A stretch of DNA of 64,000 nt, from assembly GCF_012720115.1 (NCBI RefSeq), contig NZ_VNWN01000006.1:310001-374000 (forward strand), given 5' to 3'. A program made the position numbers and the translations under genes. Positions within the stretch are counted from its first letter, which is position 1. Each line of letters opens with the position of its first letter. The notes under the pieces were generated by a model. It was given only the letters and a program-made list of their open reading frames with translations, was not told the origin of the DNA and searched no databases. The stretch comes from Sneathiella chinensis (GTDB taxonomy: Bacteria; Pseudomonadota; Alphaproteobacteria; Sneathiellales; Sneathiellaceae). This document shows, piece by piece, positions 16,357 through 25,709 of the stretch.

Positions 16357-16411
16357 TCCTGTTGCCGCTGTTCGTTTGGGATAGCGGCGCCTTCTTGAAG
16401 CTCAAGATTTC

Positions 16412-16470
16412 TGATCCACCGGAACAGCCTTGCAAGGGCACCGCTGGATCAATGCTGGCATGATCCAGCG
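16412..16470. other. Mutually exclusive hairpins downstream of the thioesterase gene
   Basis: CGCTGGATCA (16442-16451) can pair perfectly with TGATCCAGCG (16461-16470) across 9 bases. Part of the same arm can instead pair with TGATCCA at 16412-16418. No T-run follows, so it is a poor terminator. It lies between the thioesterase stop and the tracrRNA terminator and could be an attenuator-like structure or the decayed end of an older element. Confidence 0.4.
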
Positions 16471-16512
16471 AATAGGTTTTCCAGATTTTTCCAGAAAAAT
16501 TCATTCAGGCAC

Positions 16513-16542
16513 AAAAAAAAGACGCACCGGAGTGCGCCTTTT
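16513..16542 (-). terminator. Terminator of the tracrRNA
   Basis: On the reverse strand: AAAA, the hairpin GGCGCAC-TCCG-GTGCGTC (one G-U pair), then eight T residues. It gives the tracrRNA a sharp 3' end, as seen for other type II systems. Confidence 0.85.
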
Positions 16543-16598
16543 CATTTTGTGAACATTGAATCTTGTTAACGACAAGACGCCAATTTCTAGAATGCTGT
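16513..16598 (-). ncRNA. tracrRNA of the type II-C CRISPR system
   Basis: Read on the reverse strand, a CAACAGC-type start leads into an anti-repeat (about 16596-16566). This matches the CRISPR repeat perfectly over GCATTCTAGAAAT, then with G-U pairs, a two-base internal mismatch and one bulged base up to the AAC end. A short linker with weak TTCA/TGAA pairing and a strong terminator hairpin follow. The RNA would be about 85 nt, short for a tracrRNA. The predicted duplex with the crRNA repeat is what RNase III cuts and what Cas9 binds. The 5' end is estimated from the promoter, not seen. Confidence 0.87.
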
Positions 16599-16603
16599 TG
16601 AGA

Positions 16604-16633
16604 TAAATACCCGAAAAGTTATTGTAAGGTCAA
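16604..16633 (-). promoter_or_regulatory. Candidate tracrRNA promoter
   Basis: On the reverse strand, TTGACC (16633-16628), an 18-bp spacer and TATTTA (16609-16604). A start 6-8 bases later would place the 5' end at the beginning of the anti-repeat. The element lies in the 5' untranslated region of cas9, so tracrRNA and cas9 are divergent and share this interval. Confidence 0.5.
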
Positions 16634-16668
16634 GAATAAATATACAATAGCGAGCAGGGAGCTACGAC

Positions 16669-19600
16669 ATGAACTATAAGCTGGCGCTTGATTTGGGATC
16701 CACATCGATTGGCTGGGTGGCACTGGAGCTGGACAGAAGGGAGCCTGTATCCCTTCTTGATATGGGGGTGCGTATCTTTGATGACGGGCGGGACGACAAA
16801 TCAAAGGAACCTTTGGCTGTTGGCAGGCGTCTGGCGCGAGGGATGCGCCGTAATCGGGACCGCAAAAAAGACCGGGTGTTGAAATTGCGGGATGCCCTGA
16901 CCCGGCATGGTTTGTTCCCGGAAGATAGTCTTACGCAAAAAGCGTTGGCGGGGCTGGATCCCTATGCCTTGCGGGTCAAGGGGCTGGATTCCGAACTGGC
17001 TCCGGTTGAGCTGGGACGCGCTTTGCTGCATATCGCCCAGCGACGAGGGTTCAAGAGTAACCGAAAATCCGATCGGGGGGATAATGAAGCCGGGCCGGTC
17101 AAGCTGGCCGCAGCCTATCTGGAACAGGAGATGATGACGGCGGGTGCCCGGACACTGGGCGAGTATCTTGATAAACAGGACGTGAAGCGGGTCCGCAAGA
17201 CCGGGAAGGAATACAACCTTTATCCCCTTCGAAAGATGCTGGAACAGGAGGTGGAGTTGCTGTTGGCGGAACAGCAAAAATATCATGGCGCCCTGCTAAC
17301 CGATGAGGTGGCAGAGGAGTTGAAGCATATCATCTTTTTCCAAAGAGAGCTTCACAAACCCAAGGTGGGCCTGTGCGCATTTGAGTATGAGGCTGGAGAG
17401 GAAAGGGCGCCCCATGCCTTTCCGTCCGTGCAACGGTTTCGCATCTGGCAGGAAGTCAACAATCTGGATTTTGAGCGGTATAATCCAGATGATCCCCATA
17501 TGACACAGGACCAGAAAAACAGGATTGCGGAAAATCTTCTGTCTGGAAAAAACCAGACCTTCAAACAAATCCGCAAAGCGTTGGATTTGGAGGACAGTCA
17601 ACGGTTCAATCTGGAAAGCGATGCCAGAAGTGAACTGAAGGGGGATCAGACGGCCAAAATCCTGTCCAACAAAAAATGCTTTGGTCCGGGGTGGTTGAAA
17701 CTATCCGGGGACGAACAGGATGAAATTGTCGCCTTCCTGCTGGAAGAAGAGGATGAAGGGGCGGTTCTTGAATTTTTGATGGATCGGTATGGCCTGTCTG
17801 CTGAAGGGGCGGATAATGTTTCCCATGCACGGTTGCCGGATGGGATCGGGCGTTTGTCCTTGAAGGCGATTGGTAAAATTCTACCTCATTTGCGGCAAGG
17901 GCTAACCTATGACAAGGCCTGCGCGGAAGCAGGGTATCACCATTCCGACCGGCGCACGGGGGAGGTGCCGGACCGGCTGCCCTACTACGGGGAAATGCTG
18001 CCCCACCGTGTCATTCCCGGAGACCGCACCACGGCGAATGAGGGTAAGCCGGAATTGTTTTACGGCAAGGTCAACAACCCGACGGTTCATATTGTCCTCA
18101 ATCAGGTGCAAAAACTGGTTAATGCCTGTATCGAGCGATGGGGGCATCCCGAACAGATAGCCGTGGAACTGGCGCGGGATTTGAAAATGCCAGCCGAAGA
18201 GCATCGCAAGATTAATGCCCGGAACCGGAAAGAGAACGAGCGGATTGCCAAGGAACTGGCCAAACTGGATGTACGGAACACCTATGTCAACCGGATGAGA
18301 TTCAAGATCTGGGAGGACTTGTCATCGGATCCGATTGAACGATGCTGCCCGTTTACAGGCGTGGTGATTTCCGAGACGGATATTTTCTCATCGCGTTTCG
18401 AGATCGAGCATCTGATCCCGTTCTCCCAATGTTACGATGACGGGCGGGCCAATAAGGTGCTGGCCCTGCAATCTGCGAACCGGGACAAGGGAAACAGAAC
18501 GCCTTTTCAGGCCTTTGGTAGCAGTCCGACCATCAATGGTCATTCCTATGACTGGAACCGTATTCAGGCGCGGGCCGATCGGTTTCACAAATCCCGTCGG
18601 TGGCGGTTCCGCCCGGATGCCCTTGAGCAACTTGAGGAAAAGGGCGGGATTATTGCCCGGCAACTAAACGATACCCGATATCTCAGCCGTCTGGCGTCAG
18701 AGTATCTTCAGTTCGCTTGCCTGTCCGCCCGTGTGGATACCATACCGGGGCAGCTTACGGCCCTCATGCGGCGGAAATGGGGGCTGGAATCCGAAATCTG
18801 GGATGGCGAGATCAAGAACAGGGAGGATCATCGTCACCATGCCATCGATGCCTTCGTCGTGGGGTGTACCACGCGGGGCATGTTGCAGCGGATTGCCGGC
18901 GCCGCCCGGAACCTTGAAAACAATGCCGCCCTGCAGGAGAAACGTCACAAGCTGGTAGATGACATGCCGGATCCGTTCCCCGGGTTTCTGGATCAGGTCA
19001 AGGATCGTTTCGAGAGCATGGTGATTTCCCATAAGCCGGACCACGGAAACGCACAGAAGGCCATACAATCCAAAAATCCCTATACGATCGCGCGGCTGCA
19101 TGAGGATACGGCCTATGGGTATGTGGGGCCGTCCGAGGCAAAGGGAAAAAGCTACTATGTGGTGCGCAAGGGCGTTGAAGGACTGACAAAGCGCAAGGAT
19201 ATTGAAGGTATTCGGGATGATGTTATCCGGGGCCGGTTCCTTGATGCGATCGAAGGCTTCAAGGACGGATCCGCAGAATTTTCCGAAGCCCTTCAGGCGG
19301 AAGCAAGAGCGCGCGAGCCTGTGATTCACAAGGTTCGTGTATTGGTGGAAAAAAGTGATGCCGTCATGATCGGTATCACCAACGGTCAGGAGGCCGCCTT
19401 TAAATTTTATCAGGGGGGCAGCAACGCCTTTACGGAAATTTACAGCCCGACCCATGGCAAGGATGCTGGCAAGTGGTTCGCCGAGACCATTCGGCAGTTT
19501 GATGCGCACCAGCCCGATTTCAGCCGTCAGTGGCGACGGAATGACCCCACGGCCCGCCTGATCATGCGCCTCCACAACAATGATATGGTGGCCTATGAGC

Positions 19601-19800
19601 AGGATGGGGTGCGGATTATCGCTCGCGTCAAGAAAATGACGGGGGGACGTGTCTATTTGAGGTCCCATCAGATTGCACAGGAATTGGGAGATAAATTGAG
19701 TTGGGCAGCCTCAGCAAACGAGTTGGCAAAGAGGCAAGCGCGAAAGATTTCCGTTGATATTATGGGGAGGGTTCGTGATCCCGGACCAAAAACCTCATGA
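16669..19800 (+). CDS. cas9: CRISPR-associated endonuclease Cas9, type II-C
   Basis: A 1043-aa RNA-guided nuclease, compact like the type II-C Cas9 of Neisseria or Campylobacter (about 980-1080 aa). RuvC-I is YKLALDLGSTSIGWVAL with Asp8. The arginine-rich bridge helix spans about residues 50-78 (RRLARGMRRNRDRKKDRVLK). RuvC-II has Glu500 in IAVELARDLK. HNH has CPFTG, then FEIEHLIPFSQ with His581, and ends in NRDKGNRTPFQAF. RuvC-III is HRHHAIDAF with His724 and Asp727. The wedge and PAM-reading part is about 820-1043. All catalytic residues are present, so it should be active. The stop overlaps the cas1 start (ATGA). The PAM cannot be read from sequence. Confidence 0.96.
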   Translation: MNYKLALDLGSTSIGWVALELDRREPVSLLDMGVRIFDDGRDDKSKEPLAVGRRLARGMRRNRDRKKDRVLKLRDALTRHGLFPEDSLTQKALAGLDPYALRVKGLDSELAPVELGRALLHIAQRRGFKSNRKSDRGDNEAGPVKLAAAYLEQEMMTAGARTLGEYLDKQDVKRVRKTGKEYNLYPLRKMLEQEVELLLAEQQKYHGALLTDEVAEELKHIIFFQRELHKPKVGLCAFEYEAGEERAPHAFPSVQRFRIWQEVNNLDFERYNPDDPHMTQDQKNRIAENLLSGKNQTFKQIRKALDLEDSQRFNLESDARSELKGDQTAKILSNKKCFGPGWLKLSGDEQDEIVAFLLEEEDEGAVLEFLMDRYGLSAEGADNVSHARLPDGIGRLSLKAIGKILPHLRQGLTYDKACAEAGYHHSDRRTGEVPDRLPYYGEMLPHRVIPGDRTTANEGKPELFYGKVNNPTVHIVLNQVQKLVNACIERWGHPEQIAVELARDLKMPAEEHRKINARNRKENERIAKELAKLDVRNTYVNRMRFKIWEDLSSDPIERCCPFTGVVISETDIFSSRFEIEHLIPFSQCYDDGRANKVLALQSANRDKGNRTPFQAFGSSPTINGHSYDWNRIQARADRFHKSRRWRFRPDALEQLEEKGGIIARQLNDTRYLSRLASEYLQFACLSARVDTIPGQLTALMRRKWGLESEIWDGEIKNREDHRHHAIDAFVVGCTTRGMLQRIAGAARNLENNAALQEKRHKLVDDMPDPFPGFLDQVKDRFESMVISHKPDHGNAQKAIQSKNPYTIARLHEDTAYGYVGPSEAKGKSYYVVRKGVEGLTKRKDIEGIRDDVIRGRFLDAIEGFKDGSAEFSEALQAEARAREPVIHKVRVLVEKSDAVMIGITNGQEAAFKFYQGGSNAFTEIYSPTHGKDAGKWFAETIRQFDAHQPDFSRQWRRNDPTARLIMRLHNNDMVAYEQDGVRIIARVKKMTGGRVYLRSHQIAQELGDKLSWAASANELAKRQARKISVDIMGRVRDPGPKTS

Positions 19801-20705
19801 CGGCCGGGCGTATTCTGGATATCGCCGAAGATGATATTCATCTTTCCGCAGAGCGGGGGTTTCTGATCGTGACGAAAGGGGGGAGGGAGGCTGCCCGCCT
19901 TCCCCTTGATCAACTGGATGCGGTGATTGTCCATGCTCATGGGGCCTCTTACAGTAACTCGCTGCTTGTCCGGCTTGCAGAGCGGGGCTGCCCCGTTGTG
20001 TTCTGCGGCAACAATCACGCGCCGGCGGGTGTGATGTGGTCGGTGGAAAGCCATCATCAGCAATCAGGCCGGTTCGATTTGCAACTGGCGGCGACAGTCC
20101 CGCTTCAGAAACGACTGTGGCAGGAGATTGTCCGCGCAAAAATCCGGGGGCAGGCGGAAATGTTGCGGCGAAACGAAAAGCCGCATCATGATGCCCTGTT
20201 GTCCATTGCCGGATATGTGAAATCGGGGGATCCTGAAAATCACGAGGCCCAGGCCGCCCGGCGATACTGGAAAGCATTTTTCGGGCCGGATTTCGTGCGG
20301 GATCAGTCCTTGCCCGGCCTCAATGGCATGTTGAACTATGGTTATACGGTGCTGCGGGCCCTTGTGGCACGGCAAGTGATGGCCAGCGGTTTGTTTCCCG
20401 GGATGGGGCTTTATCACCGCAACAAGAATAACGCCCTTCGTCTTGTGGACGACCTGATGGAGCCGTTCCGCCCCCTTGTGGATCACGAGGTTTACCGTCT
20501 TTCGCTTGCCGGGCACCAGTCGGTGGAACGGGATGTCAAGCTGGCGCTAGCCTCCATCGGGAACTATCCGGTGTCCCTGCCTATGGGGGAAACGGATCTT
20601 TCCGTTGCGGTCGAAATGTTCGTCCGCTCCCTTGTCTCCTCGTTGGAGGCGGGGCAGGTCTCTCTGGTCGTCCCCGAATTCGGGTTCCGGCTGGAGGCAA
20701 CATGA
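19797..20705 (+). CDS. cas1: CRISPR-associated integrase Cas1
   Basis: A 302-aa type II Cas1, the catalytic subunit of the Cas1-Cas2 complex that inserts new spacers. The N-terminal beta domain opens GRILDIAEDDIHLSAERGFLIVT. The metal-binding residues are visible as Glu in GDPENHEAQAARRYW, His in GLYHRNKNNAL and Asp in LRLVDDLMEPFRP. Both ends overlap neighbours by ATGA junctions (cas9 upstream, cas2 downstream), so the three genes are translationally coupled. No cas4 or csn2 is present, which fits subtype II-C rather than II-A or II-B. Confidence 0.95.
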   Translation: MTAGRILDIAEDDIHLSAERGFLIVTKGGREAARLPLDQLDAVIVHAHGASYSNSLLVRLAERGCPVVFCGNNHAPAGVMWSVESHHQQSGRFDLQLAATVPLQKRLWQEIVRAKIRGQAEMLRRNEKPHHDALLSIAGYVKSGDPENHEAQAARRYWKAFFGPDFVRDQSLPGLNGMLNYGYTVLRALVARQVMASGLFPGMGLYHRNKNNALRLVDDLMEPFRPLVDHEVYRLSLAGHQSVERDVKLALASIGNYPVSLPMGETDLSVAVEMFVRSLVSSLEAGQVSLVVPEFGFRLEAT

Positions 20706-21037
20706 TCAAGCGACTTTCGGGATACAGGTTCATGTGGATGATGGTTTTGTTCGATCTTCCGACCGGCACGAAAAAAGAGCGGAAGAGAGCCCATGGTTTC
20801 AGAATGTTTCTCTTGGATCAGGGATTTGAAATGTCCCAGTTTTCAGTCTATGTGCGGTTTGTCGGGGATCGGAGCAACACCAAGCCCTTCGCCCGGAAGA
20901 TAGAGGCAGCCGCGCCAGCCAATGGCAAGGTTTCCATCCTCATGTTCACAGACAAGCAGTTTTCTGATATTATCAATATTCGAAACAGGGAGAAAAGCAA
21001 ACCGGCATCAGAGCCGGAACAAATCCTGCTTTTCTGA
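20702..21037 (+). CDS. cas2: CRISPR-associated protein Cas2
   Basis: The protein is 111 aa. It has the ferredoxin-like Cas2 fold: strand 1 YRFMWMMVLFDLPTGTKKERKRAHGFRMFLLDQGFEMSQFSVYVRF with the conserved Asp in VLFDLP, then NGKVSILMFTDKQF. It dimerises and bridges two Cas1 dimers during spacer acquisition. It is the last gene of the cas operon. The array begins 85 bases beyond its stop. Confidence 0.95.
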   Translation: MIKRLSGYRFMWMMVLFDLPTGTKKERKRAHGFRMFLLDQGFEMSQFSVYVRFVGDRSNTKPFARKIEAAAPANGKVSILMFTDKQFSDIINIRNREKSKPASEPEQILLF

Positions 21038-21122
21038 TGGGAACAAGATGCGAACACAGCCTCGATTTGATGTGAAGAAGACCGGATTATCCACGATATT
21101 TCAAATGGATAACCCGGTTTCT
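21038..21122. promoter_or_regulatory. Leader-like interval between cas2 and the array
   Basis: These 85 bases separate the cas2 stop from the first repeat. All repeats near this side are intact, while the far end of the array carries the degenerate repeat. New spacers are therefore probably added here, next to cas1-cas2. Most of the interval is taken up by the hairpin at 21081-21118. Confidence 0.5.
21081..21118. terminator. Hairpin between convergent cas operon and CRISPR array
   Basis: ACCGGATTATCCA (21081-21093) and TGGATAACCCGGT (21106-21118) form a 13-bp stem with one mismatch and a 12-base loop. A short T-rich run (TTTCTATT) follows on the forward strand and a weaker one (CTTCTTC) on the reverse. 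It sits where cas2 transcripts and array transcripts would meet, so it may terminate both. Confidence 0.55.
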
Positions 21123-24050
21123 ATTATAGCATTCTAGAAATCGGCGCCAAGCCGCAACTACGTTAAGCATCGGGACCTGAATAATCGTATTATAGCATTC
21201 TAGAAATCGGCGCCAAGCCGCAACCTGGGTGGAGGCCACTCTGGATATGAAGTGATTATAGCATTCTAGAAATCGGCGCCAAGCCGCAACATATATGACG
21301 ACCATTTCAGGGCGTCCAGAATTATAGCATTCTAGAAATCGGCGCCAAGCCGCAACATTTGCGCTGCGCATATCAACAATAGCAACATTATAGCATTCTA
21401 GAAATCGGCGCCAAGCCGCAACCTTCGGCTTCTTTGGCCTCCCAGTGCTTCGATTATAGCATTCTAGAAATCGGCGCCAAGCCGCAACTTAAAGAGCAAG
21501 CTAATAATGTTCGGGCAAATTATAGCATTCTAGAAATCGGCGCCAAGCCGCAACGATATATTCATGAAATTGCAAGCACCTTTGATTATAGCATTCTAGA
21601 AATCGGCGCCAAGCCGCAACGCGCCGCATCACCTGATAAAACGCTTTTTATTATAGCATTCTAGAAATCGGCGCCAAGCCGCAACTCCACATTGTAATCA
21701 GCCATTATTCACCGTATTATAGCATTCTAGAAATCGGCGCCAAGCCGCAACGGAAACGACTGAGTATATGCCAAGGGAGACATTATAGCATTCTAGAAAT
21801 CGGCGCCAAGCCGCAACAACACCACGGTCGGGAATGTGGATAGCGGCATTATAGCATTCTAGAAATCGGCGCCAAGCCGCAACATGCCAGCGATTGTTCC
21901 ACCCATTCATCCGATTATAGCATTCTAGAAATCGGCGCCAAGCCGCAACGGGGATGCTGGTTCTTGGCCTGCCGCCGGGATTATAGCATTCTAGAAATCG
22001 GCGCCAAGCCGCAACGAAGGGGATTTCTGTGTTTCGTCCTCCCCGATTATAGCATTCTAGAAATCGGCGCCAAGCCGCAACTGGTCCCGCTTGGCATGGC
22101 GGAACATGACGATTATAGCATTCTAGAAATCGGCGCCAAGCCGCAACGTGATTGGCAAGCAACAGAAACCCACACCGATTATAGCATTCTAGAAATCGGC
22201 GCCAAGCCGCAACTGGTCTCGGCCCCTTTTTCCGCCTGATCGCATTATAGCATTCTAGAAATCGGCGCCAAGCCGCAACTGGCCAGCGATACCGTCACCA
22301 ATAACGACCATTATAGCATTCTAGAAATCGGCGCCAAGCCGCAACACCAGAGGAATGGTTCAGCACCTTCTCGATATTATAGCATTCTAGAAATCGGCGC
22401 CAAGCCGCAACGTACCCGGTGTTTTTTTGTTTTTTTTGCCGATTATAGCATTCTAGAAATCGGCGCCAAGCCGCAACTTGCCGCCGCCACCGCCCTGGGG
22501 GACCACGATTATAGCATTCTAGAAATCGGCGCCAAGCCGCAACCCCTGAGCCGACCGGCGCCAAGGCTCGGCAATTATAGCATTCTAGAAATCGGCGCCA
22601 AGCCGCAACTCTTTTATGTCGGCGTGGGCGAAAACGAGGATTATAGCATTCTAGAAATCGGCGCCAAGCCGCAACTAATCGCCGCCCAGAAAGGTCTGGG
22701 TCGCCATTATAGCATTCTAGAAATCGGCGCCAAGCCGCAACATCCATTGACGGAGAAAAAAATGGCTTTCGATTATAGCATTCTAGAAATCGGCGCCAAG
22801 CCGCAACCCACAAAGCACACGGCCCCGAGATTACGAAATTATAGCATTCTAGAAATCGGCGCCAAGCCGCAACAAGCGGAAATCGACGGTTTGCCTTTGG
22901 CAAATTATAGCATTCTAGAAATCGGCGCCAAGCCGCAACGCATTGGCCCCGCTGGTAAAGGTCAACAGGATTATAGCATTCTAGAAATCGGCGCCAAGCC
23001 GCAACAAACAGCTATATTGCCAAAAAAATGTAAAATTATAGCATTCTAGAAATCGGCGCCAAGCCGCAACTGTGGATCAGGAGCGCAAAATGGAAGCTTC
23101 ATTATAGCATTCTAGAAATCGGCGCCAAGCCGCAACCCATATTTTATTTTTAGTGATTGACGACACATTATAGCATTCTAGAAATCGGCGCCAAGCCGCA
23201 ACGCACTTCGCGTCCCGGACTGTCTGTCCGTAATTATAGCATTCTAGAAATCGGCGCCAAGCCGCAACTTCAAAACCTCTTTTTCACTCAAAACAGCCAT
23301 TATAGCATTCTAGAAATCGGCGCCAAGCCGCAACGCTCGACACCTTGCCCATTATCGCCGTTAAATTATAGCATTCTAGAAATCGGCGCCAAGCCGCAAC
23401 GACGACTACCGTCATTTTAGACCTTCTCCATTATAGCATTCTAGAAATCGGCGCCAAGCCGCAACTGATGGAGGTCAGGGATCCACGAATAGTCGATTAT
23501 AGCATTCTAGAAATCGGCGCCAAGCCGCAACGCCGTCGCCGTATTCATATTACCCGGCCCGATTATAGCATTCTAGAAATCGGCGCCAAGCCGCAACTTA
23601 CGCATTCGGTGCTTACTAGCGCTTGGCATTATAGCATTCTAGAAATCGGCGCCAAGCCGCAACTATATAAGGTCCAACTTGAGATAGATATCAATTATAG
23701 CATTCTAGAAATCGGCGCCAAGCCGCAACTCCGTCTCCTGTTCAATGGTCAGCTTTCGCATTATAGCATTCTAGAAATCGGCGCCAAGCCGCAACAGAAA
23801 TACAGGGCGGCCCCTTCCGGGTATCATTATAGCATTCTAGAAATCGGCGCCAAGCCGCAACCGGCGGTGTCAAAACACACAAAAAGACCCATTATAGCAT
23901 TCTAGAAATCGGCGCCAAGCCGCAACACGGGGAATGTACTTGTGCTGCTCCAGAGAATTATAGCATTCTAGAAATCGGCGCCAAGCCGCAACCCGACAGC
24001 GATGAATTCAGACACTGACATATTATAGCATTCTAGAAATCGGCGCCAAG
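21123..24050 (-). CRISPR. Type II-C CRISPR array, 45 repeats and 44 spacers
   Basis: The repeat is 36 bp. On the transcribed (reverse) strand it begins GTTGCGGCTTGGCGCC and ends CTAGAATGCTATAAT, close in layout to the Neisseria repeat. Repeats start at 21123 and recur every 66 bp; 44 are full length and appear identical. The 45th (24022-24050) lacks the first 7 bases on the transcribed strand. Thirty-nine spacers are 30 bp. Five are 29 bp: those before the repeats at 21650, 23035, 23430, 23891 and 24022. No two spacers are alike. Each repeat contains a -35-like TTGGCG, 16 bp, then extended -10 TGCTATAAT, so each spacer can be transcribed from its own repeat. The 66-bp period is a multiple of three, which makes meaningless open frames run through the array. 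Confidence 0.98.
24022..24049 (-). promoter_or_regulatory. Promoter retained in the truncated outermost repeat
   Basis: This repeat copy lacks repeat bases 1-7 but keeps CTTGGCG through TGCTATAAT: -35-like TTGGCG (24049-24044), 16-bp spacing and a perfect TATAAT (24027-24022) preceded by TGC. It would start the crRNA of the oldest spacer (23993-24021) about 6-8 bases inside the spacer. Confidence 0.6.
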
Positions 24051-24253
24051 GGTCTAGTGGGGGGGGGCTTTTATCAGTTTATTTTAATGGAAGGGTGTGT
24101 CAGGGTAGCGGCTGTGGTGCGGAGACTACGGTGAAATTCGACCCGCCGAAGCACGAAGGCATTTAGCTGACGGAGCGAATGGGTTTTATAGGTCGGCCCC
24201 GCCGTACCACACTCTGGCAGTTGTGGTCCTTACTTGGGGGACCGGAAAAATCA
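24051..24253. other. Unassigned GC-rich spacer between CRISPR array and glnA
   Basis: No protein gene is convincing here. A run of nine G (24059-24067) follows the truncated repeat. Further on, TGTGGTGCGG (24113-24122) can pair with CCGTACCACA (24202-24211), enclosing 79 bases with smaller possible stems such as CGACC/GGTCG. This could be a structured RNA or the remains of a mobile element. Nothing in it matches an RNA family I recognise. Confidence 0.4.
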
Positions 24254-24286
24254 CAAAAAAAGGGCCGCTTTTCAGGGCGGCCCTTT
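24254..24286 (-). terminator. Terminator of glnA
   Basis: On the reverse strand: AAAAGGGCCGC, a loop, GCGGCCCTTTT and a T-run. It begins 20 bases after the glnA stop codon. Confidence 0.9.
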
Positions 24287-24305
24287 TCAGTTTTGGATGC
24301 GAGCC

Positions 24306-25709
24306 TTAGAGGCTGAAATACATATCGAACTCGACCGGGTGCGGGGCGTGTTCGAAGCGGTAAACCTCTTCCCACTTCATTTCAATATAGGCGTCGATCA
24401 TGTCTTCGGTGAAGACGCCGCCCTTGGTCAGGAAGTCCCGATCTGCATTGAGGGATTCCAGAGCTTCGCGGAGAGAGCCGGCGACGGTCGGGATGTCGCG
24501 CAGTTCTTCTGCCGGCAGGTCGTACAGATCCTTGTCCATGGCATCGCCCGGATGGATCTTGTTCTGGATGCCGTCCAGACCGGCCATCATCATGGCCGCG
24601 AAGGCCAGATACGGGTTGGCGGTGCAATCCGGGAAGCGGATTTCAACGCGCTTGCCTTTCGGGCTCGGGGAGTACGGAATACGGCAGGACGCAGAGCGGT
24701 TGCGGGCGGAATAGGCCAGCAGAACCGGTGCCTCAAACCCCGGGATCAGACGCTTGTAGGAGTTGGTGGACGCGTTGGTAAAGGCGTTCAGGGCCTTTGC
24801 GTGCTTGATGATACCACCGATATAATACAAGGCTGTTTCTGACAGGGCCGCATAACCGGAACCGGCAAAGGTCGGGTTGCCTTCCTTCCAGATGGACTGG
24901 TGCACATGCATACCGGAGCCGTTGTCACCGGAAACCGGTTTCGGCATGAAGGTCGCGGTCTTGCCATAGGCGTGGGCCACGTTGTGGATGACATATTTCT
25001 GCCGCTGGATGTTGTCGGCCGCATCAAGAAGCGTGTTGAAGCGGAAGCCGAGCTCATGCTGGGACGGCGCCACTTCGTGGTGGTGCTTTTCGACGAGCAG
25101 ACCCATTTCGCGGGCAACATTCACCATTTCAGAGCGGATATCCGCACCCTGGTCAACCGGCTGAACCGGGAAGTAGCCGCCCTTGACACCCGGACGGTGG
25201 CCGGTGTTGCCGCCATCGATTTCCTTGGCGGACTGGTGCGGGGCTTCCACATCATCAAGCTGATAGAAGGAGTGGTGGCTGCCGGTCTGGAAGCGCACGT
25301 CATCGAACATGAAGAATTCTGTTTCCGGCCCGAAATAGGCCGTGTCGCCAATGCCGGTGCTGGCCAGATAGGCTTCGGCCTTCTTGGCGATGGAGCGCGG
25401 ATCGCGTTCGTAATTCTCGCCGCTGGTCGGGTCGAGAATGTCGCACATGACAATCAGGGTCGGGTGGGCCGCAAACGGATCGATGGTCACCGTGCTGGGG
25501 TCCGGCTTCAGGGTCATGTCTGATTCGTTGATGGCTTTCCACCCCTTGATGGAGGAGCCGTCAAACATGATGCCGTCCTCGAACATGTCGTCGTCAACGG
25601 CGTCCACATGCATGGCCAGATGCTGCCATTTGCCCTTCGGGTCCGTGAAGCGAAGGTCAACATACTGGATGTCTTTCTCTTTGATGAGATCCAAAATCTG
25701 CGAGCTCAT
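24306..25709 (-). CDS. glnA: Glutamine synthetase, type I
   Basis: A 467-aa dodecameric GS-I that joins ammonia and glutamate with ATP. The frame is open upstream to 25814, but the family start [30 protein letters not shown] is at 25709. Signatures are FDGSSIKGW near the N-terminus, [16 protein letters not shown] (the ATP-site stretch), NRSASCRIP, and the adenylylation region with Tyr in [11 protein letters not shown], so it should be controlled by GlnE. It follows glnB by 79 bases on the same strand. That order and the sigma-54 promoter ahead of glnB are known for alphaproteobacterial glnBA operons. Confidence 0.96.

Follow-up and report, generated by a model that had tools for sequence, protein, structure and literature searches.

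Does every repeat of this CRISPR array carry its own promoter, and are the crRNAs made from these promoters? The array lies in a 64-kb window (the whole stretch of DNA that was analysed, to which all positions refer) of a 3.55-Mb genome. Three genes, cas9, cas1 and cas2, form an operon on the plus strand (16669–21037) and are followed by an 85-bp leader and then by the array. A thioesterase gene precedes cas9, and glnA, which points toward the array, lies beyond it.

Organization of the locus

16513–16600, minus strand: predicted tracrRNA, ~88 nt; the anti-repeat is followed by a terminator stem and T8; both ends are predicted
16604–16633, minus strand: possible tracrRNA promoter, TTGACC-N18-TATTTA, picked out by eye
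16669–19800, plus strand: cas9, 1043 aa (TIGR01865, 1.2e-181; HNH_4, RuvC_III and Cas9_a domains)
19797–20705, plus strand: cas1 (TIGR03639 cas1_NMENI, 6.4e-72)
20702–21037, plus strand: cas2 (TIGR01573, 2.4e-16)
21038–21122, no strand assigned: leader between cas2 and the array
21123–24057, minus strand (crRNA sense): CRISPR array of 44 perfect 36-bp repeats, one degenerate repeat and 44 spacers; strand taken from the tracrRNA anti-repeat

Type II-C Cas9 proteins measure ~1000–1100 aa. With a small Cas9 containing RuvC and HNH domains, cas1 and cas2, and a predicted tracrRNA with anti-repeat and terminator, the locus is, by its gene content, a complete type II-C CRISPR-Cas9 system; neither csn2 nor cas4 was found among the immediate neighbours of cas9–cas1–cas2 and the array. 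Most spacers (39 of 44) are 30 nt long and the remaining five are 29 nt. The array had been thought to end at 24050, and the degenerate copy extends it to 24057.

Two genomes of the same genus (G005 and G013; loci L056, L057 and L096) harbour different II-C systems, with Cas9 proteins 42–43% identical, and the Cas9 of this locus has no match at E ≤ 0.001 in 21 of 25 genomes of the family. Judging by such divergent or absent systems in relatives, the turnover of II-C loci in this genus may be quick. In a further genome of the genus (G011; loci L012/L093), the match to the Cas9 N-terminus covers 73 residues only and the surrounding 18 kb contain no array, and this is possibly a decayed II-C locus.

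The strand of the crRNAs

The predicted tracrRNA gene lies directly upstream of cas9. Its anti-repeat forms a duplex of −46.1 kcal/mol with the minus strand of the array, the best in the window outside the array (the next unrelated site reaches −38.2), compared with −30.3 kcal/mol for the other strand. Since the anti-repeat fits the minus strand far better, the crRNAs should come from that strand, opposite cas9, in agreement with the earlier note. The possible promoter TTGACC-N18-TATTTA would place the tracrRNA start near the anti-repeat; our promoter scan, which allows spacers of 16–18 bp, missed it because a T is required at the last position.

Among relatives, duplex energy is lowest for the strand opposite cas9 in 32 of 37 loci; L045, L048, L089 and L090 favour the other strand and L076 is tied. 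L072 is uninformative in this respect, since its second array was what matched. For 80 further loci, referred to here as the named loci, an anti-repeat was sought for L102 only and the sense was taken as the strand whose repeat starts with G(T/C)T, which is the minus strand in 58 of 58 (the other strand of L152 starts in the same way).

A protospacer search was intended as an independent test of the strand from the PAM. The array had no match in 50,697 phage records, and the plasmids gave only weak places in five records (E 0.8). Against 24 genomes of the genus, the own genome included, matches at E ≤ 0.05 occur in four: the array itself, the L096 array in G013, and weak places in G003, in G012 and elsewhere in the genome of this locus (E 0.009–0.03). 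The search yielded no PAM.

A promoter-like element in every repeat

The minus-strand sequence of the repeat is GTTGCGGCTTGGCGCCGATTTCTAGAATGCTATAAT, and its 3′ end is TGCTATAAT in 45 of 45 copies. The promoter scan recovers TTGGCG-N16-TATAAT, with TG before the −10 hexamer, in every copy, the degenerate repeat included, just as the earlier note had described it for the reverse strand.

21123–21128, minus strand: −10 hexamer TATAAT of the leader-side repeat, at the equivalent place in all 45 copies
21145–21150, minus strand: −35-like hexamer TTGGCG, separated by 16 bp from the −10 hexamer downstream and identical in all 45 copies

The −35-like hexamer matches TTGACA at four of six positions. 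That note had counted 44 promoters; the element is indeed present in each repeat, but there are 45 copies, 44 of which precede a spacer while the copy at 21123–21158 faces the leader and the cas2 end. As the copies of one repeat are not independent, the 45 of 45 and the comparisons with shuffled sequences (46 occurrences of TGNTATAAT in the window, 45 of them inside the array, compared with 0.55 on average over 100 dinucleotide shuffles of the window; 54 promoter-like sites in 16400–24400 against 6.4, sd 2.7, in 50 shuffles) show little beyond the fact that the repeat contains the element, and conservation in relatives is therefore the informative test. The composition of the spacers at the predicted start shows no signal, with a purine at spacer position 6, 7 or 8 in 36 of 44, which is about the random expectation.

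Conservation of the repeat end

We collected arrays from two sets of relatives. A class search gave 54 loci (L041–L094), of which 17 lack an array and three (L046, L067 and L073) have a consensus that is not 36 long, leaving 34; of the 80 named loci, 22 lack an array with repeats of 30–42 nt, leaving 58. Together with L096 this makes 93 loci, some of which are a single record fetched twice, and merging loci with the same repeat yields 87 distinct repeats. Five consensuses of 37–38 nt were trimmed to 36 by hand.

In the 34 loci, which include our own, position 31 is T in 34, position 32 is A in 34 and position 36 is T in 33, with positions 33–35 varying. T, A and the final T are the most important bases of a bacterial −10 element. 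Over the whole set, 80 of 87 distinct repeats end in TANNNT, compared with at most five at any other offset in the sense strand and eight in the antisense strand. This ending is found in 23 of 26 clusters (<70% identity), where base composition predicts 0.0198 per repeat, although shuffles and clustering remove relatedness only in part. The key −10 positions are thus conserved in relatives. G is present at position 29 in 79 of the 87 repeats and TG in 42, and among all offsets the best mean match to TTGACA (3.16/6) falls on positions 9–14, the same place as the −35-like hexamer here. On a combined score this repeat is 8th among the 87, and 11 score as high or higher. Seven repeats lack the TANNNT ending, including that of L056 in the same genus (TATAAC) and that of L158, which is possibly out of register by one base, and poor −10 elements such as TAGGCT are common among relatives.

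The end of the repeat might be kept for a different purpose, namely for Cas1–Cas2 (or for Cas9 in adaptation), with the crRNAs cut by RNase III from one long pre-crRNA that starts at a promoter beyond 24057. We consider this improbable. The 3′ end of the repeat does sit at the leader junction, as such a role would have it, but the bases conserved there are T, A and the final T, with variable ones between them.

Pairing with the tracrRNA

The tracrRNA pairs with repeat positions 1–8 and 11–31 in this locus. Position 31, the first base of the −10 hexamer, is thus paired; positions 32–36 are unpaired, so pairing leaves most of the −10 element unexplained. The closest relative, L102, has a Cas9 that is 62% identical and a repeat that differs at positions 4, 14, 17, 25 and 27. 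Its anti-repeat co-changes at positions 14 and 25, G-U becomes A-U at positions 4 and 17, and the pair at position 27 is broken.

That TATAAT is a by-product of the sequence required for tracrRNA pairing would be in keeping with the paired position 31, with the extension of pairing to position 33 in L102 and with several relatives (e.g., L059, L088 and L072) in which pairing reaches the repeat end. Nevertheless, besides the unpaired positions 32–36 of this locus, two further observations make this explanation very improbable. The repeats of this locus, L102 and G013 all end in TATAAT, yet the tracrRNA stretch facing this hexamer differs among the three. Moreover, the paired fraction over the 34 loci falls from position 31 to 36 (0.82, 0.71, 0.53, 0.50, 0.44, 0.24; these values take the assumed sense alone, after manual reversal of L090, and include a wrong site for L068), so that position 36 is paired in 24% of the loci yet is T in 33 of them.

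We favour, with considerable confidence, the reading that each repeat carries a real embedded promoter; RNA-based start data come from organisms other than this one and its close relatives. The sequence evidence points to selection of the repeat end as a promoter, and not just for the tracrRNA or the integrase.

The terminal repeat and the flanks of the array

24022–24057, minus strand: terminal ("extra") degenerate repeat; five mismatches, all within the first seven positions; −35-like and −10 hexamers intact
21081–21093 and 21106–21118: arms of a 13-nt inverted repeat in the leader
24257–24288, minus strand (the array's strand): terminator-like hairpin after glnA, ~200 nt upstream of the array

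The degenerate repeat stands at the 5′ end of the array, as seen in a single strain. It has no spacer on its 5′ side, and driving spacer 1 would thus be its only evident job. A first test of terminal repeats in relatives (31 arrays) required an intact 3′ half for detection and was repeated with either half allowed, on 86 arrays with at least three chained repeats; 18 lie at contig edges and were excluded, leaving 68 scored. The terminal repeat is changed in 39 of these, and the 197 changes are distributed as 120, 40, 27, 5 and 5 over positions 1–8, 9–14, 15–27, 28–30 and 31–36, respectively. The 12 apparent changes of L126 are probably one single-base deletion, without which the totals are 120, 40, 23, 2 and 0. 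Across the 86 arrays, a degenerate unit is found at the 5′ end in 27 and a partial unit at the other end in three. We set this pattern aside as proof of promoter selection, since erosion of the array end from outside would look similar. In PMC12080349, terminal-repeat changes likewise cluster in the first 15 nt, and it is stated both that positive selection cannot be claimed and that the extra repeat must stay a promoter.

The inverted repeat of the leader (21081–21118) lies next to the array, at the point where it and the cas operon run toward each other. Over 27 leaders (our own counted twice), the mean inverted-repeat score is 10.96, against 6.2 in shuffled leaders. It may serve to terminate transcription in both directions or as a signal for integration; a leader palindrome is also described for Riemerella in part of PMC5006608.

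At the other end of the array, one long pre-crRNA could start at a weak promoter-like sequence on the same strand (CTGACA-N16-TAAACT, 24103–24076), but the terminator-like hairpin between glnA and the array speaks against such a transcript. The hairpin could shield the array from glnA transcription, although terminator-like sites in 16400–24400 are at chance overall (10 found against 9.9 in shuffles). The ~200 nt between the hairpin and the array (24058–24256) contain a run of nine G (24059–24067) and a 10-nt inverted repeat (24113–24122/24202–24211); no Rfam family reaches the cut-off in this stretch (best E 0.02).

Repeats of a phylum taken to be Bacteroidota

If Cas1–Cas2 required TA...T at the leader-side end of the repeat, II-C systems in general should keep it. 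We sampled the phylum of G405 (Rhodothermales, locus L168), in which 61 of 395 genomes have a Cas9 (E ≤ 1e-60). All 60 besides G405 were fetched (loci L188–L247); 52 contain an array, giving 47 distinct repeats after one 33-nt repeat of L222 was dropped. In 16 arrays the two repeat ends resemble each other, and for these we used the strand opposite the longest ORF. GTDB presumably places Rhodothermales in the Bacteroidota; NCBI lists a separate phylum. On the strength of the GTDB placement, and because the complement of the published Riemerella anti-repeat (excerpt of PMC5006608) is present in nine of the 24 long-repeat arrays, we take the sampled phylum to be Bacteroidota.

None of the 24 long repeats (44–47 nt) and seven of the 23 repeats of 36 nt end in TANNNT. 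All 24 long repeats end in CAAC, CAGC, CAGG or CAAG, and type II machinery as a family thus needs no TA...T, which again argues against a repeat end kept for the integrase.

The primary sigma factor of Bacteroidota has the consensus TAnnTTTG at −7 and TTTG near −33, as given in PMC7366714, whose organism, Bacteroides thetaiotaomicron, lacks a CRISPR array. Among the long repeats, 11 of 13 clusters (<75% identity) have at least five of the six TAnnTTTG bases 17–23 nt after the TTG at positions 2–4. Shuffles that keep the first 17 bases predict 1.3 such clusters, and none of 2000 gave as many; this probability and those that follow are rough, since the spacing of 17–23 and the threshold of five in six were chosen after the repeats had been seen and the clusters are still related. 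The element is less frequent in the 36-nt repeats, with five of 11 clusters against 1.39 expected (P = 0.0065 by count, 0.03 by mean score). Over all 24 clusters, TAnnTTTG comes out on top when compared with the other orders of its letters, 30 in all.

The cross-scores are mixed. The Bacteroidota repeats also exceed their shuffles in a sigma-70-type pair score (7.89 against 7.26, z 4.7), and so do the 87 repeats in the score for TTG plus TAnnTTTG (1.59 against 0.38, z 12), to which their fixed GTTG start contributes. Taken by itself, TAnnTTTG is raised in the Bacteroidota set (z 3.1) and not among the 87 repeats (z −1.9). The repeat of L168, which belongs to the 87, ends in TAACTT and fits both patterns. 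In the Bacteroidota sample the anti-repeat pairs in part with the TAnnTTTG stretch (0.54–0.88), and pairing could also be the cause of this stretch.

We suggest, with slightly more doubt than belief, that the II-C repeat promoter has been rewritten to suit the host polymerase. Where the usual sigma factor is at work, repeats would end in TANNNT, in many cases preceded by TG and by a TTGAC- or TGGAC-like −35 element at 16 bp; the long Bacteroidota repeats would combine CAAC-type ends with an internal TTG-N17–23-TAnnTTTG. We grade this down because the sampled phylum is one that we inferred and because the cross-scores disagree as described. If the suggestion holds, the crRNA start in Bacteroidota would move back into the repeat, and II-C arrays would be portable, leaderless transcription units whose promoter is matched anew when they move between phyla. 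It would also explain why no promoter is reported for the 47-nt repeats of Riemerella in the relevant part of PMC5006608, and it predicts that transfer of a II-C array across phyla silences the array. A literature search restricted to open-licence papers, in which absence proves little, returned no title announcing a link between TAnnTTTG and CRISPR; according to an excerpt of PMC10309648, TAnnTTTG belongs to cas9 and the repeat has TTG. This host-matched pattern is the most novel part of our analysis and worth following.

Proposed production of the crRNAs

RNA polymerase would bind TTGGCG/TGC-TATAAT within each repeat. Judging by the spacing, transcription would start ~7 nt into the following spacer, and the 5′ end of the crRNA would be set by initiation, not by cleavage, with a guide of ~24 nt. 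The downstream repeat would then pair with the tracrRNA made beside cas9, and RNase III, the gene for which is encoded in the genome, probably trims the 3′ side of the crRNA and may be dispensable. The earlier note had gone further and predicted activity independent of RNase III. With the enzyme encoded here, and with Campylobacter jejuni having repeat promoters yet using RNase III to make its 3′ ends (PMC3656092, in part), that prediction is unwarranted.

New spacers would enter at the cas2-side (3′) end, where the last repeat already supplies a promoter. At the opposite end of the array, the oldest repeat would have lost its tracrRNA-pairing 5′ end and been kept as the promoter of spacer 1.

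Compatible with these promoters being real is a variant, which we rate as possible but rather unlikely, whereby read-through and RNase III make much of the crRNA and favour the newer (downstream) spacers. Read-through is to be expected, as a scan of 16400–24400 found no minus-strand terminator-like site inside the array, and C. jejuni lacking RNase III accumulates longer transcripts (excerpt of PMC3656092). Against this, a perfect extended −10 element in each repeat would predict strong local initiation. Overall, the interpretation of the repeats as promoters is, on the sequence evidence, very likely.

Comparison with known II-C systems

The repeat of Neisseria meningitidis, whose array was reportedly described by Zhang et al. 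in 2013, ends in TGCTACAAT, one base off the consensus. As here, this species has one promoter per repeat, with the extended −10 element at the 3′ end (parts of PMC5006608 and PMC7038990). Dispensability of RNase III, reported second-hand in the excerpt of PMC5006608, was tested in Neisseria.

C. jejuni likewise has only cas9–cas1–cas2, a tracrRNA and a repeat that ends in an extended −10 element (GGTAAAAT). Its starts were mapped inside each spacer as primary 5′ ends, at spacer position 5, and maturation of the 3′ end requires RNase III (PMC3656092; Dugar et al. 2013).

In the II-C system of Clostridium cellulolyticum, as in ours, the repeat closes with nine nucleotides similar to an extended −10 element and the array runs opposite the cas genes; its crRNAs contain 23–26 nt of spacer, comparable to the ~24-nt guide predicted here. 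Unlike here, its small RNAs were measured (in E. coli), and internal initiation is one of two explanations offered (excerpt of PMC7038990). The metagenomic EH CRISPR-Cas9 system also has cas9–cas1–cas2, a tracrRNA upstream of cas9 and an array expected to run in the direction of the tracrRNA; it is known from two repeats only, and repeat promoters are mentioned as a possibility (excerpt of PMC10281378). For Flavobacterium columnare and Flavobacterium psychrophilum, array expression from within toward the variable end and a repeat-encoded promoter have been proposed; unlike here, this involves a TTG motif only, and the F. columnare repeat is said to lack TAAAT (parts of PMC8092290 and PMC10309648). 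A Bordetella II-C locus has the same layout as ours; its tracrRNA is divergent and its terminal repeat carries three changes (PMC4624362, in part).

Repeat promoters are stated as general for II-C systems in PMC12080349 and PMC12638026, and the design is thus not exceptional among them. A search of open-licence papers, where absence proves little, gave no title announcing a repeat promoter demonstrated in an alphaproteobacterium. The design is known type II-C biology, to which this array adds an alphaproteobacterial example and not a new mechanism. Compared with C. jejuni, the predicted −10 element here is perfect and is accompanied by a −35-like hexamer at 16 bp, and the array would thus represent a II-C system of an alphaproteobacterium in which the promoter of every repeat is unusually complete.
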